A stretch of DNA of 64,000 bases, taken from the NCBI RefSeq assembly GCF_000702665.1, contig NZ_JNJA01000001.1:1-64000 (forward strand), read 5' to 3'. Below the pieces are notes generated by a model, which was given only the letters and a program-made list of their open reading frames with translations, was not told where the DNA came from and did not search any database. Origin of the DNA: Solidesulfovibrio alcoholivorans DSM 5433. GTDB taxonomy: Bacteria; Desulfobacterota; Desulfovibrionia; Desulfovibrionales; Desulfovibrionaceae. Made by a program: the position numbers and the translations under genes. Shown one piece after another: positions 33,304-42,073 of this stretch. Each line of letters opens with the position of its first letter. Position 1 is the first letter of the stretch.

Positions 33304-35760
33304 ATGGGCAAGGGAAGCGTCACGGACTACCACGACCTCGCATCGCTTGGCGAAGACATCCGCCGCCACATCCTCTCCAACCTCGGCAACGACCTCTACC
33401 CGCCCGACCCCTTCCGCTACTTCAGCGGCCTGGCCTACGCCGTGCGCGACCGGCTCATCCGCATGTGGCTGACCACGCAAACCGCCTATTACGACTCCAT
33501 GAGCAAGCGCGTGTACTACCTGTCCATGGAGTTCCTGCCCGGCCGCTTCCTCATGAACGCCATCATCAACATGGGCATGGAGCAGGGATGCCGGGAGACG
33601 GTGGCCGATCTGGGCTTTTCCCTGGACGACCTGGCCGAGGAGGAGCGCGACGCCGGGCTCGGCAACGGGGGCCTCGGGCGGCTGGCCTCGTGCTACATGG
33701 ACTCCATCGCCACCTGCGGCATTCCCGGCTGCGGCTACGGCATCCTCTACGACTACGGCCTGTTCCACCAGACCATCGTGAACGGCTGGCAGGAGGAACA
33801 GGCCGACAACTGGCGGCGTCACGGCAGCCCCTGGGTCATCGACCGCATGGAGCACCTCTACGAGGTGCGCTTCCACGGCAGAAGCGAGGCCTACACCGAC
33901 GACAAGGGCAACCTGCGCTACCGCTGGGTGGACGCGGACACGGTCATGGCCATGCCCTGCGACATCCTCCTGCCCGGCCACGGCGGCGGCCACGTCACCA
34001 ACATGCGGTTGTGGGCCGCGGCCTCGTCCCAGGAATTTTCGCTGCGCGACTTCAACCAGGGCGACTTCGTCGGGGCCATGCAGGCGAAAATCCTCTCGGA
34101 AAACATCTCCAAGGTCCTCTACCCCAACGACGAACCCGTGGCCGGCAAGGAACTGCGCCTCAAGCAGCAGTATTTCCTGGTCGCGGCCACGCTGCGCGAC
34201 ATCGTGCGCCGCCACCGCAGACCCGGTCCGGCCGCCTTCGAGGGATTCGCCGACCAGGTCGCCATCCAGCTCAACGACACCCACCCGACCATCGCCGTGG
34301 CCGAGCTCATGCGCATCCTCGTGGACGAGGAATTCCTGCCCTGGGACGAGGCCTGGGCCATCTGCCGGGAGACCTTCGCCTACACCAACCACACGGTCCT
34401 GCCCGAGGCGCTCGAGACCTGGCCCATGGACCTGCTCGGGCGCGTGCTGCCGCGCCACCTGGAGATCATCGTCGAGATCGACCGCCGCTTCCAGGCCGAG
34501 GTGGCCGCGCGTCATCCCGGCGACGGCGGCAAGCTCGCGCGCATGGCCATCATCGACCGGGGCAGCTCCCGGGTGCGCATGGCCCATCTGGCCATTGTCG
34601 GCAGCCATGCCGTCAACGGCGTGGCCAGACTCCATTCCGACATCCTGCGCGAGCACGTGTTTCCGGATTTCGACGCCTTCTATCCCGGCAAGTTCACCAA
34701 CGTGACCAACGGCGTCACGCCCCGGCGCTGGCTGCTCCAGGCCAATCCCATCCTGTCGGCGCTCATCACCGAGGCCATCGGCCCGGACTGGGTCCGGGAT
34801 CTGACGGAGCTGCGCAGGCTCGCGCCCCTGGCCGAGGACGCGGCCTTCCGCCAGTCCTGGCGCACGGCCAAACGCGACAACAAAAAGCGCCTGGCCCGCT
34901 ACGTGCTGCGCAAGGCCGGGCTCGGCATCAACCCGGACACGCTCTTCGACGTCCAGGTCAAGCGCATGCACGAGTACAAGCGCCAGCTTCTGAATGTCCT
35001 GCACGTCGTGACCCTCTACAACCGCCTGCGCCGCGACCCGGGGCTCGCCGTGCCGCCGCGCACGGTGCTGATCGGCGGCAAGGCCGCGCCGGGCTATTTC
35101 ATGGCCAAGCGCATCATCCGGCTGATCACGGCCGTGGCCGAGAAAGTAAACACCGACCCGGCCATGCGCGGCCGCCTGCGCATGCTCTTCCTGCCCAACT
35201 ACTGCGTGTCCCAGGCCGAAAAGGTGATCCCCGCCGCAGACCTCTCGCAGCAGATTTCCACCGCCGGCATGGAGGCCTCGGGCACGGGCAACATGAAGTT
35301 CGCCTTAAACGGCGCGCTGACCATCGGCACCCTGGACGGGGCCAACATCGAGATCATGCAGGAAGTGGGGGAAGACAACATCTTCATCTTCGGCCTGACC
35401 GCCGACGAAGTGGCCGCCGCCCGGACCCGGGGCGTGGACCCGCGCAGCCGCGTGCGCGACGACCCCGAACTGGCCGAGGCGCTGGACATGATCGGGCGCG
35501 GCTTTTTCGCCCCGGACGACCCCGGGCTGTTCACGCCCGTCATCGAAAGCCTGCTCGACCGCGGCGACTACTACTGCGTCACGGCCGACTACCGCGCCTG
35601 CATCGAAGCCCAGGACCGGGTCAACGCCCTCTACCTCGACCCCGACGCCTGGAGCCGCAAGTCCATCCTTAACACCGCGAACATGGGATTTTTCTCGAGC
35701 GACCGCGCCGTGATGGAATACGCCCGCAACATCTGGCACATCGAGCCGCTCAAGGAGTAG
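33304..35760 (+). CDS. glgP: Glycogen/starch/alpha-glucan phosphorylase
   Basis: An 818-aa phosphorylase releasing glucose-1-phosphate from alpha-1,4-glucan with pyridoxal phosphate. Visible: YYLSMEFLPGRFLMNAIINM, GLGNGGLGRLASCYMDS, LNDTHPTIAVAELMR, and the PLP site EASGTGNMKFALNGALTIGT with the cofactor Lys near residue 665. Length is normal for the family. The ATG follows CCAGGGAGCCGCC. Its last 11 bases overlap the end of the convergent sensor kinase gene. A glucokinase gene 6 kb away would phosphorylate any free glucose. Confidence 0.97.
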   Translation: MGKGSVTDYHDLASLGEDIRRHILSNLGNDLYPPDPFRYFSGLAYAVRDRLIRMWLTTQTAYYDSMSKRVYYLSMEFLPGRFLMNAIINMGMEQGCRETVADLGFSLDDLAEEERDAGLGNGGLGRLASCYMDSIATCGIPGCGYGILYDYGLFHQTIVNGWQEEQADNWRRHGSPWVIDRMEHLYEVRFHGRSEAYTDDKGNLRYRWVDADTVMAMPCDILLPGHGGGHVTNMRLWAAASSQEFSLRDFNQGDFVGAMQAKILSENISKVLYPNDEPVAGKELRLKQQYFLVAATLRDIVRRHRRPGPAAFEGFADQVAIQLNDTHPTIAVAELMRILVDEEFLPWDEAWAICRETFAYTNHTVLPEALETWPMDLLGRVLPRHLEIIVEIDRRFQAEVAARHPGDGGKLARMAIIDRGSSRVRMAHLAIVGSHAVNGVARLHSDILREHVFPDFDAFYPGKFTNVTNGVTPRRWLLQANPILSALITEAIGPDWVRDLTELRRLAPLAEDAAFRQSWRTAKRDNKKRLARYVLRKAGLGINPDTLFDVQVKRMHEYKRQLLNVLHVVTLYNRLRRDPGLAVPPRTVLIGGKAAPGYFMAKRIIRLITAVAEKVNTDPAMRGRLRMLFLPNYCVSQAEKVIPAADLSQQISTAGMEASGTGNMKFALNGALTIGTLDGANIEIMQEVGEDNIFIFGLTADEVAAARTRGVDPRSRVRDDPELAEALDMIGRGFFAPDDPGLFTPVIESLLDRGDYYCVTADYRACIEAQDRVNALYLDPDAWSRKSILNTANMGFFSSDRAVMEYARNIWHIEPLKE

Positions 35761-37906
35761 CGAGGACCACCTCTTCCGCGTCCTGCGGCGGCTCCACGGG
35801 AAAGGTCGCCTCGAAGCGCACCCCTCCGCCTGGCGGCGTGGTAAACGATGCCTCGCCCTCGAGCTGGCGGGTGAGTTCCGTGACGAGCGTCATGCCCATG
35901 CCGGCGGCCCCTGTGGCATCGAAGCCCGGCGGCAGCCCCTGACCGTCGTCCTCCACCCAGATGCGGGCGACCCCGCCTTCCTGACGGCAGCCCACGCGCA
36001 GGTGGCCTGTCCGCTCGCCGGGAAAGGCGTGCTTGCAGGCGTTGGTGAGCAGTTCGCTGCAAAGCAGGCCGCAGGGCACGGCCTTGTCCAGCGGCAGGCG
36101 CACGGACTCGGTTTCCAGGCGCAGGCGCACCCGGGTCGCGACGTCCGCGTAGACGTTGCACACGCCCTCGGTCAGGACCCGCAGGTATTCGGCCAGGTCT
36201 ATGGCGGCGAAGTCGCCGTGACTGTAGAGTTGCTGGTGGACCAGGGCCATGGAGCGGATGCGGATCTCCAGGCGGCGCAGCCGGTCGCGCTCGGCCGGGT
36301 TTTCGGCGTCGTCGGCCTGCAGGCCGATGAAGCTCAGGATGATTTGCAGGTTGTTCTTGACCCGGTGGTGGATCTCCTTGAGCAGGACGGTCTTTTCCTC
36401 CAGGGCGCGCTCGCGGTCCGTGACGTCGTCGAAGCGGATGACCACGCCGTCAGCGCCGTTGGCGATGAGCGGATAAAGCAGCATATCCAGGAAATGCATG
36501 TCCCCCGCCTGGGGCAGGGAAAGCTTTTCCACGACCAGGGCCCGGCGTTCATGCAGGGCCCGTTCCACGGCATGCATGTAGTCGCCCAAAAGCGGCAGGG
36601 AGGCGACCACGTCGCGTCCCATGGCCGTTTCCCTGTTCAGACCGAACAGGCGGCTGGCCGTGTCGTTGACGTGGGTGACGTGCCCCGTGCCGTCCAGGCC
36701 GATGATCGCCGAGGGCATGGATTCCAGGATGTTGTGCAGCATGGAGCGCATCTTGGCCAGCGCGGTCACGGCCTGCTCCAGTTCCCGGTCGCGTTGTTGC
36801 AGGGCCCCGGCCATGGCGTCGAAGCTCGCGCCCAGGCGGCGGACCTCCAGGCTTCCGCCGTCCGCGCCGGCCCGGGCCTCCAGGTCGCCTGTGGCCAACC
36901 GGGCGGCGGCGGCGGAAAGGCGGGCGAGGCCCTGGCCGATGGCGTATCTGCCCGCGGCCCAGGCGATGACAAGGGCCAGGACAAGAGCCAGGAAGGCCTG
37001 GACCAGTCCCCGGAGCAACTGCGCGTCGGCCTGGGCGTAGGCTTCGCCGCGGGTGCTGGACACAATGATGGTCATATAGGGCGGCTGGTCCGGCTGCAGG
37101 CGCAGGCGCGCGAAACTGAACAGCCCCTCCTCGCCGCTGCGCCGCGTGCCGACGAAGAATCCGACGTCTTCCGCCGCCTCGTTGCAGCGTTCCCAGATGT
37201 GGGGCGTGGCCGTTTCGCCCAGGGGGAAACGGGAATCCGTCGGATAGGCGACCATGCGCCGGCCATCGGTGTCCAGGAGCGTGACCCGCGCGTGGGGCGG
37301 CAGCTCGAGGCCTCTGAGAAACCGTTCGTAGCCCTCGAGATAATAGGACAGCCCGATGACGCCGGCGAAGGCGCCCTCGGCGTCCGTGCGGGCCAGGGCA
37401 AAGGCCACGATGGGTTTGTGCGTGGCCCGGCCGAGGATGAACCGGCTGACGCCCAGGCCGCGGCTGCCCTGAGCGGCCTTGAAGTAATCTCGATCCGAAA
37501 GGTCCACGCCGAGAAAGGCCGGCAGCCCCGACGCCACCACCCTGCCGGCGGCATCGGTCAGAAAAATGTTGGACATTTCCGGGTGGTCGTCGAGCAGGGA
37601 GGCGAACATGCGGTTGAGCGCCGGCAGGTTGTGGCCGCGCATTTCCCCGGTATGGGCCAGGGCGACGAGCAGCGCCTGGGACAGGTTCCCGACGCCGTCC
37701 TGGATGGCGACGAGCCCCTGGGTCAGGTTGCGCATGTCCTCCCGGACCAGGAGTTCCCCGGCGCGCCTGTTTTCGAAGCTCATGCCCAGGATGATGGCGA
37801 TGGCGGGCAACCCGGCCATAAGCACGATGCCGGTCAAGAGCGTGGCGAGAGAGCGGCCGAAGACCCAACGCCGCAATCCGGCGAGCAGTTTCCCCATTGC
37901 CGTCAT
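35750..37906 (-). CDS. Cache-HAMP-PAS sensor histidine kinase (HisKA_2)
   Basis: A 718-aa membrane kinase. TM1 at about 18-42; a periplasmic dCache-type sensor (about 43-305; LGVDLSDRDYFKAAQGSRGL, AGVIGLSYYLEGYERFL); TM2 at about 305-325; HAMP; PAS (SMLHNILESMPSAIIGLDGT); then HisKA_2 with KEIHHRVKNNLQIILSFIGL and a C-terminal HATPase (CSELLTNACKHAFPG, GAAGMGMTLV). No receiver or adjacent response regulator. ATG at 37906 has a poor ribosome site; ATG at 37897 is an alternative. It starts 51 bases past the TusA-like gene and may belong to that transcript. Confidence 0.92.
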   Translation of the reverse strand: MTAMGKLLAGLRRWVFGRSLATLLTGIVLMAGLPAIAIILGMSFENRRAGELLVREDMRNLTQGLVAIQDGVGNLSQALLVALAHTGEMRGHNLPALNRMFASLLDDHPEMSNIFLTDAAGRVVASGLPAFLGVDLSDRDYFKAAQGSRGLGVSRFILGRATHKPIVAFALARTDAEGAFAGVIGLSYYLEGYERFLRGLELPPHARVTLLDTDGRRMVAYPTDSRFPLGETATPHIWERCNEAAEDVGFFVGTRRSGEEGLFSFARLRLQPDQPPYMTIIVSSTRGEAYAQADAQLLRGLVQAFLALVLALVIAWAAGRYAIGQGLARLSAAAARLATGDLEARAGADGGSLEVRRLGASFDAMAGALQQRDRELEQAVTALAKMRSMLHNILESMPSAIIGLDGTGHVTHVNDTASRLFGLNRETAMGRDVVASLPLLGDYMHAVERALHERRALVVEKLSLPQAGDMHFLDMLLYPLIANGADGVVIRFDDVTDRERALEEKTVLLKEIHHRVKNNLQIILSFIGLQADDAENPAERDRLRRLEIRIRSMALVHQQLYSHGDFAAIDLAEYLRVLTEGVCNVYADVATRVRLRLETESVRLPLDKAVPCGLLCSELLTNACKHAFPGERTGHLRVGCRQEGGVARIWVEDDGQGLPPGFDATGAAGMGMTLVTELTRQLEGEASFTTPPGGGVRFEATFPVEPPQDAEEVVLATP

Positions 37907-37957
37907 AGACAGGATTCCGGGGCAAAAGTCCAGGCGAAAGAAACCTGCCGCGCGGTT

Positions 37958-38200
37958 CTACCCGGCTGCGCCGCCGGGCCGCAGGCGGCTGTAGCGCGCC
38001 CGCAGGAACCCCTCCTCCGCGGCGACCTCAAGCCGCCAGCCCGAGACCGTGGCCAGCTGGTCCTCGAGCACGCCCCGCGCGCTCGGCGCAACCAGGAATT
38101 CCAGTTCCCGGGCGCGGGATAAACGGAGATACCACCCTATCTCCAGGCCCAGGCCTCAGCACTTGTCGCGCAGATCGAGGGTCAGGCGCTTGTCGTCCAT
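37958..38200 (-). CDS. TusA/SirA-like selenoprotein with in-frame TGA (Sec15)
   Basis: An 80-residue protein read through a TGA at 38158-38156, to a TAG at 37960-37958. It begins LTLDLRDKCUGLGLE (U is the TGA), matching the TusA start LDLRGLKCPxP with Sec at the position of Pro after the active Cys14. After the TGA the frame continues LEFLVAPSARGVLEDQLATV and SGWRLEVAAEEGFLRARYSR, the normal TusA beta-alpha-beta remainder. ATG at 38200 follows AGGGGACTGCC, 9 bases past the stop of the UPF0016 gene. A SECIS-like hairpin follows the TGA. TusA proteins relay sulfur (or selenium). Alternative: a nonsense-mutated pseudogene, but homology on both sides and the hairpin argue against it. Confidence 0.85.
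38125..38158 (-). promoter_or_regulatory. Predicted bacterial SECIS element
   Basis: On the minus strand, the TGA (38158-38156) is followed by 11 bases, then a perfect 7-bp stem GGAGATA (38144-38138) and TATCTCC (38131-38125) closing the 6-base loop GGGTGG. E. coli fdhF has the same 11-base distance to its upper stem and a 6-base loop with unpaired G needed for SelB binding; here the loop begins with three Gs. Confidence 0.8.
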
Positions 38201-38209
38201 GGCAGTCCC

Positions 38210-38482
38210 CTAGAGTTTGTCGAAATAGATGAGCGCGCCCATGACCACGAAGGCCACGGCAGCGACCTTCTTGATGATGTCGGGCGAGACGAAGTTGCAG
38301 ATGAATTCCGCGAAAATGACCCCGAGCAGGCTCGTGGCCACGAGCGCCAGCGAGGAGCCGGCGAAGACGATCCAGGGCTTGCGCGAATCCGCCGCCGTCA
38401 GCACGCAGGCCAGCTGCGTCTTGTCGCCGAGTTCGGCCACGAAAATGGTGGCGAAAGTGGTGAAAAGCAGTTTCCAGTCCAT
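38210..38482 (-). CDS. UPF0016/GDT1-family membrane protein (half-size)
   Basis: A 90-aa protein with three hydrophobic segments and one copy of the family signature VAELGDKTQLA (residues 15-25). UPF0016 (TMEM165/Gdt1/MneA) proteins carry two such motifs and export Mn2+ or Ca2+; single-motif halves are thought to work as dimers. ATG at 38482 follows AAGAGGGATGC. It lies 33 bases after the MoeA-PBP gene and 9 bases before the TusA-like gene, in one operon. Confidence 0.9.
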   Translation of the reverse strand: MDWKLLFTTFATIFVAELGDKTQLACVLTAADSRKPWIVFAGSSLALVATSLLGVIFAEFICNFVSPDIIKKVAAVAFVVMGALIYFDKL

Positions 38483-38515
38483 GCATCCCTCTTGGCAGCC
38501 GCGACCGGCTGCCGC

Positions 38516-40449
38516 TTACGCGCCGGGCAGGCCCATTCCCGGCTCCATGACGCGGCCCGTCCAATCGGTTTCGTAGCCGCCCAGGGCCTCCACGCTGTCC
38601 CGGAAGGCCGTTGCGCCCACCACCTCGCGCACGGCCGCGATCTTGTCGTCCGCGGCAAAGGCCTGCGGGATGACGAGGTCGTAGCGCTCCCGGGCCAGGG
38701 GCACGAAATCGAGCCCGAGCGCCCGCGCCGCCGCGAAAACGCCCAGGCCGCAGTCGGCCGCGCCGGTCTTCACGTTGACGGCCACGGCCATGTGGGTGTG
38801 CTCCTCGCGGCCGTAGCCCTGGATCTGCTCGGGCGAAAGACCGGCCTTGCCCAGGTGGTAGTCGAGGAGGATGCGCGTGCCCGCGCCGCGCTGGCGGTTG
38901 ATGAAGCGCACGTCGTCGCGCGCGAGGTCGGCCGTGGCGCGGATGGCCTTGGGGTTGCCCGGGGCCACGATGAACCCCTGCTGGCGGATGGCCAGGTTGA
39001 TGACCGTCACGGCAAGCCCCGGCAGGTACTTGGCCAGGAAGGGGAAGTTGTAGTCGTCGGTGGCCGGGTCGAACAGATGGGAGCCGGCCAGCATGGCCGC
39101 GCCGTTTTTGAGCGCGATGAGTCCGCCCATGCTGCCCACATGGCTCGAGGCCAGGCGCACGGACGGGTCGCGGCGCATGAGCATGTCGGCCAGGAGGTCC
39201 AGGGTGTTGTCGTGGCTGCCCACGCACACGAGCGTGCGCGAAAGCTCCCCGGCGTCGACGAGCAGTTCCGCCGTGATCCTGGCCCCGGATTCCAGGCCCT
39301 CGGCCTCGGGCGCGAGCTGGGTCACGGCTTGCGCCTTGGTCAGGCTCGAAATGCTGCCCGCGCCCCGGGACAGGGGCAGGGCCACGTAGGCGCTGCCGAC
39401 CTGGCCCACGGCCAGGCGCACGAAATCCACCATGCCGATGCGCGAGGGCACGCTGCGCGCCAGGGTGGCCTGGACTCTCTGGCGCGACTGCGGCTCGGAC
39501 CGGCTGAGCCAACAGGCCAGCGGGTAGAGCAGCCGCTCGAAGCAGACCACGGAACTGACCGGATAGCCCGGCGCGCCCACGACGAGCTTGCCCCGGGCAT
39601 GGCCGAGAAGCGACGGCTTGCCCGGCATGGCCGCGACGCCGTGGACCAGCACCTCGCCCACGCGCTCGATGGTGGCCCGGGTGAAATCCTTGCTGCCGGC
39701 GGACGAGCCGGCCACGATCACCACCACGTGGGCGTCGGAGGCGAGCCCCTCCTCCAGGGCGGCGGCCAGGGCCTCGGGATCGTCGCGCACCGGGGCGACG
39801 CGCGTGCACTCCATGCCCCAGCTTTCGGCCAGGGCGCGCAACAACATGGAGTTGCTCTCCACCACCTGCCCGGGACCGGGCTCGGGATGCGCCGTGAAGT
39901 CCATGACCTCGTCGCCGGTGGGGATGACCCGCAGGCGGACCCTCTCGTAGACGGGAATCTCGTATGCCCCGCACGAGAGCAGCGCACCCACGTCGTAGGG
40001 CGTCACCCGCCTGTGGCGCGGCAGGATCATCTCCGTGGCCACGATGTCCTCGCCGATGCGCCGCACATGGGCGAACGGGGCCACCGGGGACTCGATGGTC
40101 GCGACCTCGCCGTCCATGACCACATTCTCGATCATGACCACGGCGTCGAAGGCCAGGGGCAGCGGGTGGCCGGTGTTGACGAACACGAAGCCCTCGCCCG
40201 GGGCCAGGCGCACGGGCGCGCCCTCGCGGGCGAGAAAGGTATCCGCGGCGCGCACGGCGATGCCGTCCATGGCCGCGCTGTGGAAGGTGGGCGAGGAATA
40301 GCGGGCGATGACCGGCTCGGCCGTGATGCGGCCGGCGGCATGCTCGGCGCCGATGCGCTCGACGCCGACAAGGGCCTTGCGGTCGAGCACGGCCTTGACC
40401 TTGGCCAGGGCGTCCTCGATGGGAATGGTGCGCAGGTAGATATTGCGTT

Positions 40450-40453
<4 letters not shown>
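38516..40453 (-). CDS. MoeA with C-terminal PBP-like domain
   Basis: A 645-aa fusion. Residues 1 to about 400 are MoeA, the molybdopterin molybdenumtransferase (FHSAAMDGIAVRAADT, VRLRVIPTGDEVMDF, VVVIVAGSSAGSKDFTRATI, LVVGAPGYPVSSVVCFE). The remainder is a periplasmic-binding-protein-like domain (TLVCVGSHDNTLDLLADMLM to DCGLGVFAAARALGLDFVPL), probably an intracellular oxyanion or ligand sensor. GTG at 40453 overlaps the upstream stop (GTGA) after GGGAGG. A second, PBP-less moeA is nearby at 43193, so the two may differ in metal (Mo versus W) or enzyme target; that is inference. Confidence 0.92.
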
Positions 40454-41358
<905 letters not shown>

Positions 41359-41440
41359 GGGGACTCCTTCGAAGCGGTATGCGTTGCGACCGGTGCAGTT
41401 TAGCATGATACGGGGCTTCCGGGCAAAGAACAATGCGGCA

Positions 41441-42073
41441 TTATGCGCCACGAAGAAGGGAGACGCCCTGCATGACGAACGTCGCGGCGAAATAGAGCAG
41501 CGAGACCCCGAGCGCGCCCATAAGCAGCCTGTACGCCCGCCCCGACAGGAACCGGCCGCACCGTCCCGTGACCACGGCGGCCGCGACCTTGGCCCCGACG
41601 ATGGCGACGTAGAAAAGGGCCAGGAAGACGCACACGCCGGCAAGGCCCGACGCGGCCCGCGCCTCCAGGAGCAGGGGCACGCCCACGGCGGTCCAGAACA
41701 GATACGGATGGGGATTGGTGAAGTTGGCGGCCACGCCGCGCCAGAGCGACCGGGGCGCTTCCCGCGTCGCCTCCGCCGCGGGCGGCGCGGTCGTGAAGCA
41801 GGCGATGCCGTAGCGCACAAGCAACGCCGCCCCGGCCAGGGACACCAGCCCGAGCACCGTGGGCGCGCCGGAAAATTCCGACAGCGCGAGCCAGCAGGCG
41901 AGAATGATGGGCGCATCGGTGACGACCGGGGCAAGGGCCACCTTGACGCCCTCGGCCGTGCCGTGGCGCAGGGTCTGCGACAGCACCAGGGAAAAAAGCG
42001 GTCCCGGCGAAAACCCGGCGGAAAGCCCGAGCGCGGCGGCGGCCAGGGCCAGGGAGGGAAGGGATTGGGCCAT
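41441..42073 (-). CDS. LysE/RhtB-family exporter
   Basis: A 210-aa membrane protein with about six hydrophobic segments and the family start GLSAGFSPGPLFSLVLSQTL. LysE/RhtB proteins export amino acids or related small molecules. An N-terminal hydrophobic helix and the NFTNPHPYLFW segment also fit. ATG at 42073 follows GGAAACGCAAGCA. It is 82 bases upstream of the amidase gene, so the operon lysE-type, amidase, moeA, UPF0016, TusA-like may start here. Substrate unknown. Confidence 0.9.
   Translation of the reverse strand: MAQSLPSLALAAAALGLSAGFSPGPLFSLVLSQTLRHGTAEGVKVALAPVVTDAPIILACWLALSEFSGAPTVLGLVSLAGAALLVRYGIACFTTAPPAAEATREAPRSLWRGVAANFTNPHPYLFWTAVGVPLLLEARAASGLAGVCVFLALFYVAIVGAKVAAAVVTGRCGRFLSGRAYRLLMGALGVSLLYFAATFVMQGVSLLRGA

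Follow-up and report, generated by a model that had tools for sequence, protein, structure and literature searches.

A predicted selenoprotein family of TusA-like shape in the order Desulfovibrionales

Selenoprotein genes carry an in-frame TGA that reads as a stop codon, and such a gene is predicted here in the sulfate-reducing lineage Desulfovibrionales. We analyze a 64,000-nucleotide stretch of Solidesulfovibrio alcoholivorans DSM 5433 (NZ_JNJA01000001.1, positions 1 to 64,000; hereafter, the window), in which a small frame on the minus strand, at 37958..38200, runs through a TGA. The frame consists of 14 codons, the last for cysteine, followed by the TGA, 65 more codons, and a TAG stop, giving 80 residues if the TGA is read as selenocysteine (Sec). 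A preliminary description, made from the letters alone, had pointed to this frame and interpreted it as a TusA-like selenoprotein; the observation is confirmed, and the interpretation is supported with a qualified link to TusA. We put the probability that the gene encodes a small selenoprotein with a TusA-like shape at about 0.85, a figure that excludes its role. A part in sulfur or redox chemistry is likely for the protein.

The first line of evidence is conservation of the TGA. A protein search (E <= 1) gave 29 relatives among 36 candidates; these are 48-73 residues long, all 20 sequences inspected lack the part before the TGA, and every match listed in this first homologue search covers at most 80% of the 80-residue query. 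A profile search (E <= 0.01) gave 141 matches, and among the best 120 of the 141 only P0031 is full length, as judged by query coverage and by 14 sequences inspected. A six-frame search of the order (E <= 0.01) found a match in 167 of 348 genomes. From these, 150 places (30 plus 120 loci) in 149 genomes were taken codon by codon; genome G228 is the one that contributes two, a TGA copy and a Cys copy, and 18 further matching genomes lie outside the codon-level set. The aligned codon is TGA in 149 of the 150 places, as had been anticipated for a genuine selenoprotein, and the exception is TGC in the paralogue L152 of G228. A Cys codon directly precedes the TGA in all 149 TGA relatives, Asp at -6 and Leu at +10 are invariant (150/150 each), and the residue after the Sec position is Gly in 135 of 150 and His in 11. 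The consensus of the relatives is (L/I/V)D(L/I)R-x-K-C-U-G-(V/L)-G-x-E-(V/I)-G-W-(Y/H)-L-R. Homology extends to both sides of the TGA, as the preliminary description had stated, with no decay of the frame on either side apart from the shortened copy L131 (G289), whose frame reaches a TAA 36 codons past the TGA with hairpin and operon still present; it may be a decayed copy.

Some homologues have cysteine at the Sec position, which the preliminary description had named as a supporting outcome. P0031, a Cys-Cys form of full length, shares 83% identity with the TGA form L030, and the Cys paralogues L152 (G228) and L201 (G216) occur in genomes that also carry the TGA form. L201 matches the window protein at a BLASTP E value of 4e-8 (34% identity over 73 residues) and, used as a query, retrieved 71 proteins of 76-125 residues, all with Cys at the Sec position. 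Ahead of it stands Cys in 52 of them (51 counted by script, plus P0178, a truncated sequence judged by eye), Thr in 12, Val in 3, Tyr in 3, and Ser in 1. The pairing of predicted Sec with Cys at one site is as expected of selenoproteins and points to the Sec position as the essential one. The Cys paralogue family (L201:1456-1752 (+), L152:1468-1719 (-), P0125-P0195) has the motif xCGLVP, often ends in LDTLDY, and is uncharacterised; members are called hypothetical where named, and L152 matches no Pfam or NCBIfam model.

The second line of evidence is a hairpin that we predict to be a bacterial selenocysteine insertion sequence (SECIS) element. The perfect 7-base-pair stem with loop GGGTGG, 11 bases past the TGA, is present as first described, and none of the other TGA triplets in the window (1,077 in all, both strands counted) has a perfect Watson-Crick stem of 7 pairs with a loop of 6 nucleotides (nt) at that distance. 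The preliminary description equates the TGA-to-stem distance with that of E. coli fdhF. Across the 149 sequences, conservation is 91-100% for six of the stem's seven pairs and 71% for the one that closes the loop; of the 43 sequences without the latter, bases 20 and 26 can pair instead in 40, and RNAfold draws this pairing in many sequences, with base 27 bulged. All seven pairs are kept in 105 sequences and six in 30, making six or seven in 135 of 149. The loops are mostly GGUUGG (81/149), GGGUGG (32/149), and AGUUGG (20/149). A G- or GU-containing loop, a fixed distance, and selection, the features of bacterial SECIS elements, are thus found in this register in all but 14 of the 149.

Selection on the hairpin is visible both in the pairing and in the codons. 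In 68 of 114 distinct sequences 90.8% of cells pair, and 33 cells are changed on both sides, compared with 4.3 in shuffles (0/500) and above all slid registers. With the longest open frames at these loci as codon background, Glu at +5 is encoded by GAG in 136 of 136 cases (background 45%), Ile at +6 by ATA in 36 of 43 (20%), and Val at +6 by GTA in 61 of 94 (14%); codon +9 ends in T in all 43 cases with Ile at +6, as pairing with A requires. Synonymous divergence is 0.39 over the hairpin codons, compared with 0.72 upstream and 0.65 downstream.

Some observations limit this prediction. The folding energy is not unusual (z of -0.92, -0.44, and -0.30 for three stretches), and the best structure of a 111-nt stretch does not include the hairpin; the case for the hairpin rests on conservation and covariation, not on folding energy. 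In addition, 14 of the 149 sequences keep only one to five pairs: 12 of genus g46, together with L031 and L039. RNAfold draws helices in other registers for these 14, so the same element is not established there, and a change of SECIS register is possible in them. For L031 and L039 it draws seven pairs with a 4-nt loop; the g46 loci are L094, L144, L146, L147, L150, L155-L157, L160, L161, L165, and L167, and 11 of these 12 have His after Sec.

The third line of evidence is the machinery of Sec insertion, which the genome carries in full, as the preliminary description had asked to be confirmed: selA (531.6 bits) and selB (340.3 bits; cut-off 242) on contig C23, and selC (81.5 bits; gathering cut-off 47) and selD (335.1 bits) on contig C4. 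The tRNA-Sec family is unspecific at its cut-off, which three places in this genome and 5 of 14 control genomes pass; ARAGORN assigns the best of these places to tRNA-Sec (anticodon TCA) and the next best to tRNA-Ser. Across the order, selB was found in 284 of 348 genomes, in 153 of 167 with a match to the protein and in 131 of 181 without (Fisher p 3e-6). The 14 genomes with a match in which no selB was found all proved on recheck to be drafts, and in one of them, G019, selB is split over two contigs. The selD gene (L206, G000 contig C4:371849-372772) has an in-frame TGA of its own near its start, which makes SelD a likely selenoprotein as well.

Two explanations would dispense with selenocysteine. 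The TGA could be an ordinary stop, the real protein being the short form that starts past it and the upstream codons a leader or chance frame; this is how the relatives are stored in databases, where the inspected sequences begin past the TGA. We regard it as very improbable. No ATG, GTG, or TTG lies within nine codons past the TGA in 43 of 149 loci, which means that the short forms as annotated cannot hold across the family, and in the window gene the first such codon comes 29 codons on. The upstream frame is under selection as well: pN/pS, the ratio of nonsynonymous to synonymous change, is 0.32 for codons -7 to -1 among the 149 relatives (0.35 among the 16 loci of genera g1 and g17), compared with 1.0 and 2.0 in the other frames of the same stretch, and the Asp and Cys are kept there. 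In 128 of the 149 relatives a Shine-Dalgarno-like motif lies ahead of the start chosen, compared with 21% at random places (639/2,980), and the full-length Cys homologues continue through the site. Less probable still, to our minds, is that a frameshift bypasses the TGA or that it is decoded as an amino acid other than Sec, such as tryptophan. Nothing specific speaks for this; the homologues have Cys rather than Trp at the position, a covarying hairpin lies 11 nt downstream, all four sel genes are present, and table 11 suffices, with no recoding, to keep the neighbouring genes in 34000-42000 open.

The likeness to TusA is one of shape. In a structure model the product is a one-domain protein of order beta-alpha-beta-alpha-beta-beta, as in TusA, with the vicinal Cys-Sec just before helix 1, so that the modelled fold places the active residue at the start of that helix; Sec likely sits where TusA has its catalytic cysteine. 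The link to TusA drawn in the preliminary description thus concerns fold and active-site position and does not extend to membership of PF01206. Against a closer kinship, the window protein matches no Pfam family and none of 32 members matches PF01206; the Cys-Pro-x-Pro motif of that family was not found, most members having Cys-Sec-Gly-(Val/Leu). Compared with the TusA/SirA carriers (PF01206; E. coli TusA 3lvj, SirA-like 3hz7), which have Cys at the site, the present protein has predicted Sec there, an extra Cys before it, Gly (135/150) or His (11) in place of Pro after it, and in most loci an adjoining flavin mononucleotide (FMN) reductase gene. The motif likewise differs from that of the YeeE(TsuA)-YeeD(TsuB) thiosulfate uptake complex (8k1r), and the conserved neighbours include no transporter of that type. 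In this genome, two PF01206 domains with identical scores lie at G000 C3:206191-206379 and C3:462942-463130; they are possibly a duplication.

The gene neighbourhood is largely constant across the relatives. In 108 of 149 loci an MBL hydrolase gene, the selenoprotein gene, an FMN reductase gene (matching PF03358), and a gene for a phosphoribosyltransferase that we take to be ComF-like (the copy in L202 matches PF00156) follow each other in one direction; 9 further loci lack only a detected MBL gene and 6 only a detected ComF-like gene. Overall, the FMN reductase is downstream in 123 loci and the MBL hydrolase upstream in 114. With starts taken as those of the longest frame, the FMN reductase begins ahead of the selenoprotein stop, at it, or within 103 nt of it in 122 of the 123, most commonly at a spacing of -4 (30/123). 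In 16 loci, of genera g1 and g17, a GDT1 gene stands upstream instead; GDT1 was considered as a clue to function and dropped, since only these 16 have it. None of these neighbours is present in 10 loci, L049, L030, L039, L055, L078, L085, L098, L102, L158, and L166, which have neither FMN reductase nor GDT1; L049, where the sequence runs out 151 nt downstream, is the one lacking them for want of sequence. On contig C18 of this genome stands a cluster of MBL hydrolase, FMN reductase (a homologue 40% identical), and ComF-like genes without the selenoprotein, which suggests that the gene moved.

For the role of the protein we propose the following. SelB and Sec-tRNA would bind the predicted SECIS hairpin, and the TGA would be read as Sec. 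The Sec before helix 1 would then play the part of the cysteine in TusA or serve as a redox selenol: it would take up sulfane sulfur, or attack a disulfide or persulfide, with the adjacent Cys as resolving partner in a selenenylsulfide, and the NAD(P)H-dependent FMN reductase, encoded in the same operon in most species, would regenerate the selenol. That the protein is a sulfane-sulfur or redox selenol, resolved by Cys and reduced by the FMN reductase, is a tentative proposal, to which we give somewhat less than even odds. Equally tentative is a wider picture, in which a whole selenoprotein family, carried by roughly half the species sampled from a single order, has gone unnoticed and is a TusA-fold carrier whose catalytic cysteine has been replaced by Sec beside a resolving Cys and which, with its operon flavoprotein, forms a selenium-based sulfur or electron relay of sulfate reducers.

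Metal binding and selenium delivery are the main rivals for this role. In the former, the ligand of the selenoprotein's Cys-Sec pair would be a soft metal or a metalloid; Table 1 of a 2026 review (PMC13188914) lists further selenoproteins with a CU motif (SaoL, SaoC, HgcA, KCU-star), its text also considers metal binding by the Sec of SaoB, SaoC, and UXX-star proteins possible, and the gene follows the GDT1 cation antiporter gene in 16 loci. We think this unlikely, given the FMN reductase and MBL hydrolase that flank most copies, a modelled fold that is that of TusA, and the 19 Cys homologues, out of 71, in which the preceding Cys has given way to T, V, Y, or S. Selenium delivery to SelD, or selenium trafficking at large, seems to us more doubtful again. 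It would follow the link drawn for YedF, a protein with a SirA-like and a DsrE-like domain whose genes cluster with selD in other bacteria, in the accounts given of it in PMC2432076 and PMC5322559, and the present protein shares with YedF a SirA/TusA-type domain and a connection to selenium. The present protein is one-domain with a predicted Sec, however, and its gene lies away from the sel genes, which are on contigs C23 and C4 in this genome; 131 genomes of the order have selB and no match to the protein; and it would be circular for a protein that needs Sec to supply Sec synthesis, although the same holds for SelD itself.

As to novelty, no model of Pfam or of NCBIfam release 20 has a significant match to the protein, and TusA- or SirA-type selenoproteins are absent from the 119 prokaryotic families in Table 1 of PMC13188914 and, among the matches listed, from the open-access literature; on these grounds we class it as a new family of selenoproteins with a distant likeness to TusA. 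The preliminary remark that SirA/TusA-like selenoproteins are known in principle finds no counterpart among those 119 families, and YedF is absent from them too. The CU-motif selenoproteins of the same table, KCU-star (NF033934), MerB-like SaoL (NF040728), SaoC, HgcA, and CopZ form 2, share the vicinal Cys-Sec with the present protein. The selenoprotein models of NCBIfam release 20, among them those of KCU-star, SaoL, SaoC, and HgcA, have no match at E <= 1 among 32 members; CopZ form 2 is represented by a cd model and stands outside this comparison. In the species counts of deep-Sep (PMC12013277), Desulfomicrobium orale has 0 new and 6 known selenoprotein genes and Salidesulfovibrio onnuriiensis 0 new and 10 known. 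The family adds to the prokaryotic selenoproteome. Databases list its members as hypothetical proteins in truncated form, so estimates of how much selenium Desulfovibrionales require would be too low. Relative to the tabulated families and the literature searched, this would be the first selenoprotein with a TusA fold, and it would suggest that selenium is usable in sulfur-carrier chemistry. Its Sec, Cys-Cys, and single-Cys homologues are a ready test set for the contribution of Sec to sulfane-sulfur and disulfide chemistry.

Features of the predicted selenoprotein gene and its surroundings (window positions)
Feature	Position	Strand	Remarks
Predicted selenoprotein gene	37958..38200	-	80 codons and TAG stop; Sec is codon 15; Cys-Sec (KCUG) motif
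Start ATG	38200-38198	-	start of predicted selenoprotein frame
Cys codon TGC	38159..38161	-	immediately 5' of TGA
In-frame TGA, predicted Sec codon	38156..38158	-	same codon TGA in 149/150 relatives
Predicted bacterial SECIS hairpin	38125..38144	-	GGAGATA-GGGTGG-TATCTCC; 7-bp stem, 6-nt loop; starts 11 nt past TGA
Stop TAG	37960-37958	-	closes predicted selenoprotein frame
Junction with upstream gene	38201..38212	-	upstream stop TAG 38212-38210; Shine-Dalgarno-like GGGGA; 9 nt to ATG
GDT1/UPF0016 half-size cation antiporter gene, 90 residues	38210..38482	-	upstream, same direction; PF01169 E 1.1e-22
Sensor histidine kinase gene (HisKA_2, PAS, HAMP)	35750..37906	-	downstream

The ribosome site had been placed 9 bases after the UPF0016 stop. 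The GGGGA is indeed present; the 9 nt are the distance to the ATG, and GGGGA itself overlaps the junction. The downstream histidine kinase gene is not a usual neighbour in the family. ARAGORN calls a tmRNA inside it, at 36603-37131 (+), which is probably false because Rfam reports none there. Upstream of the GDT1 gene, at 38516-41206 (-), lies a frame with a MoeA-type molybdopterin protein and a PBP-like domain.
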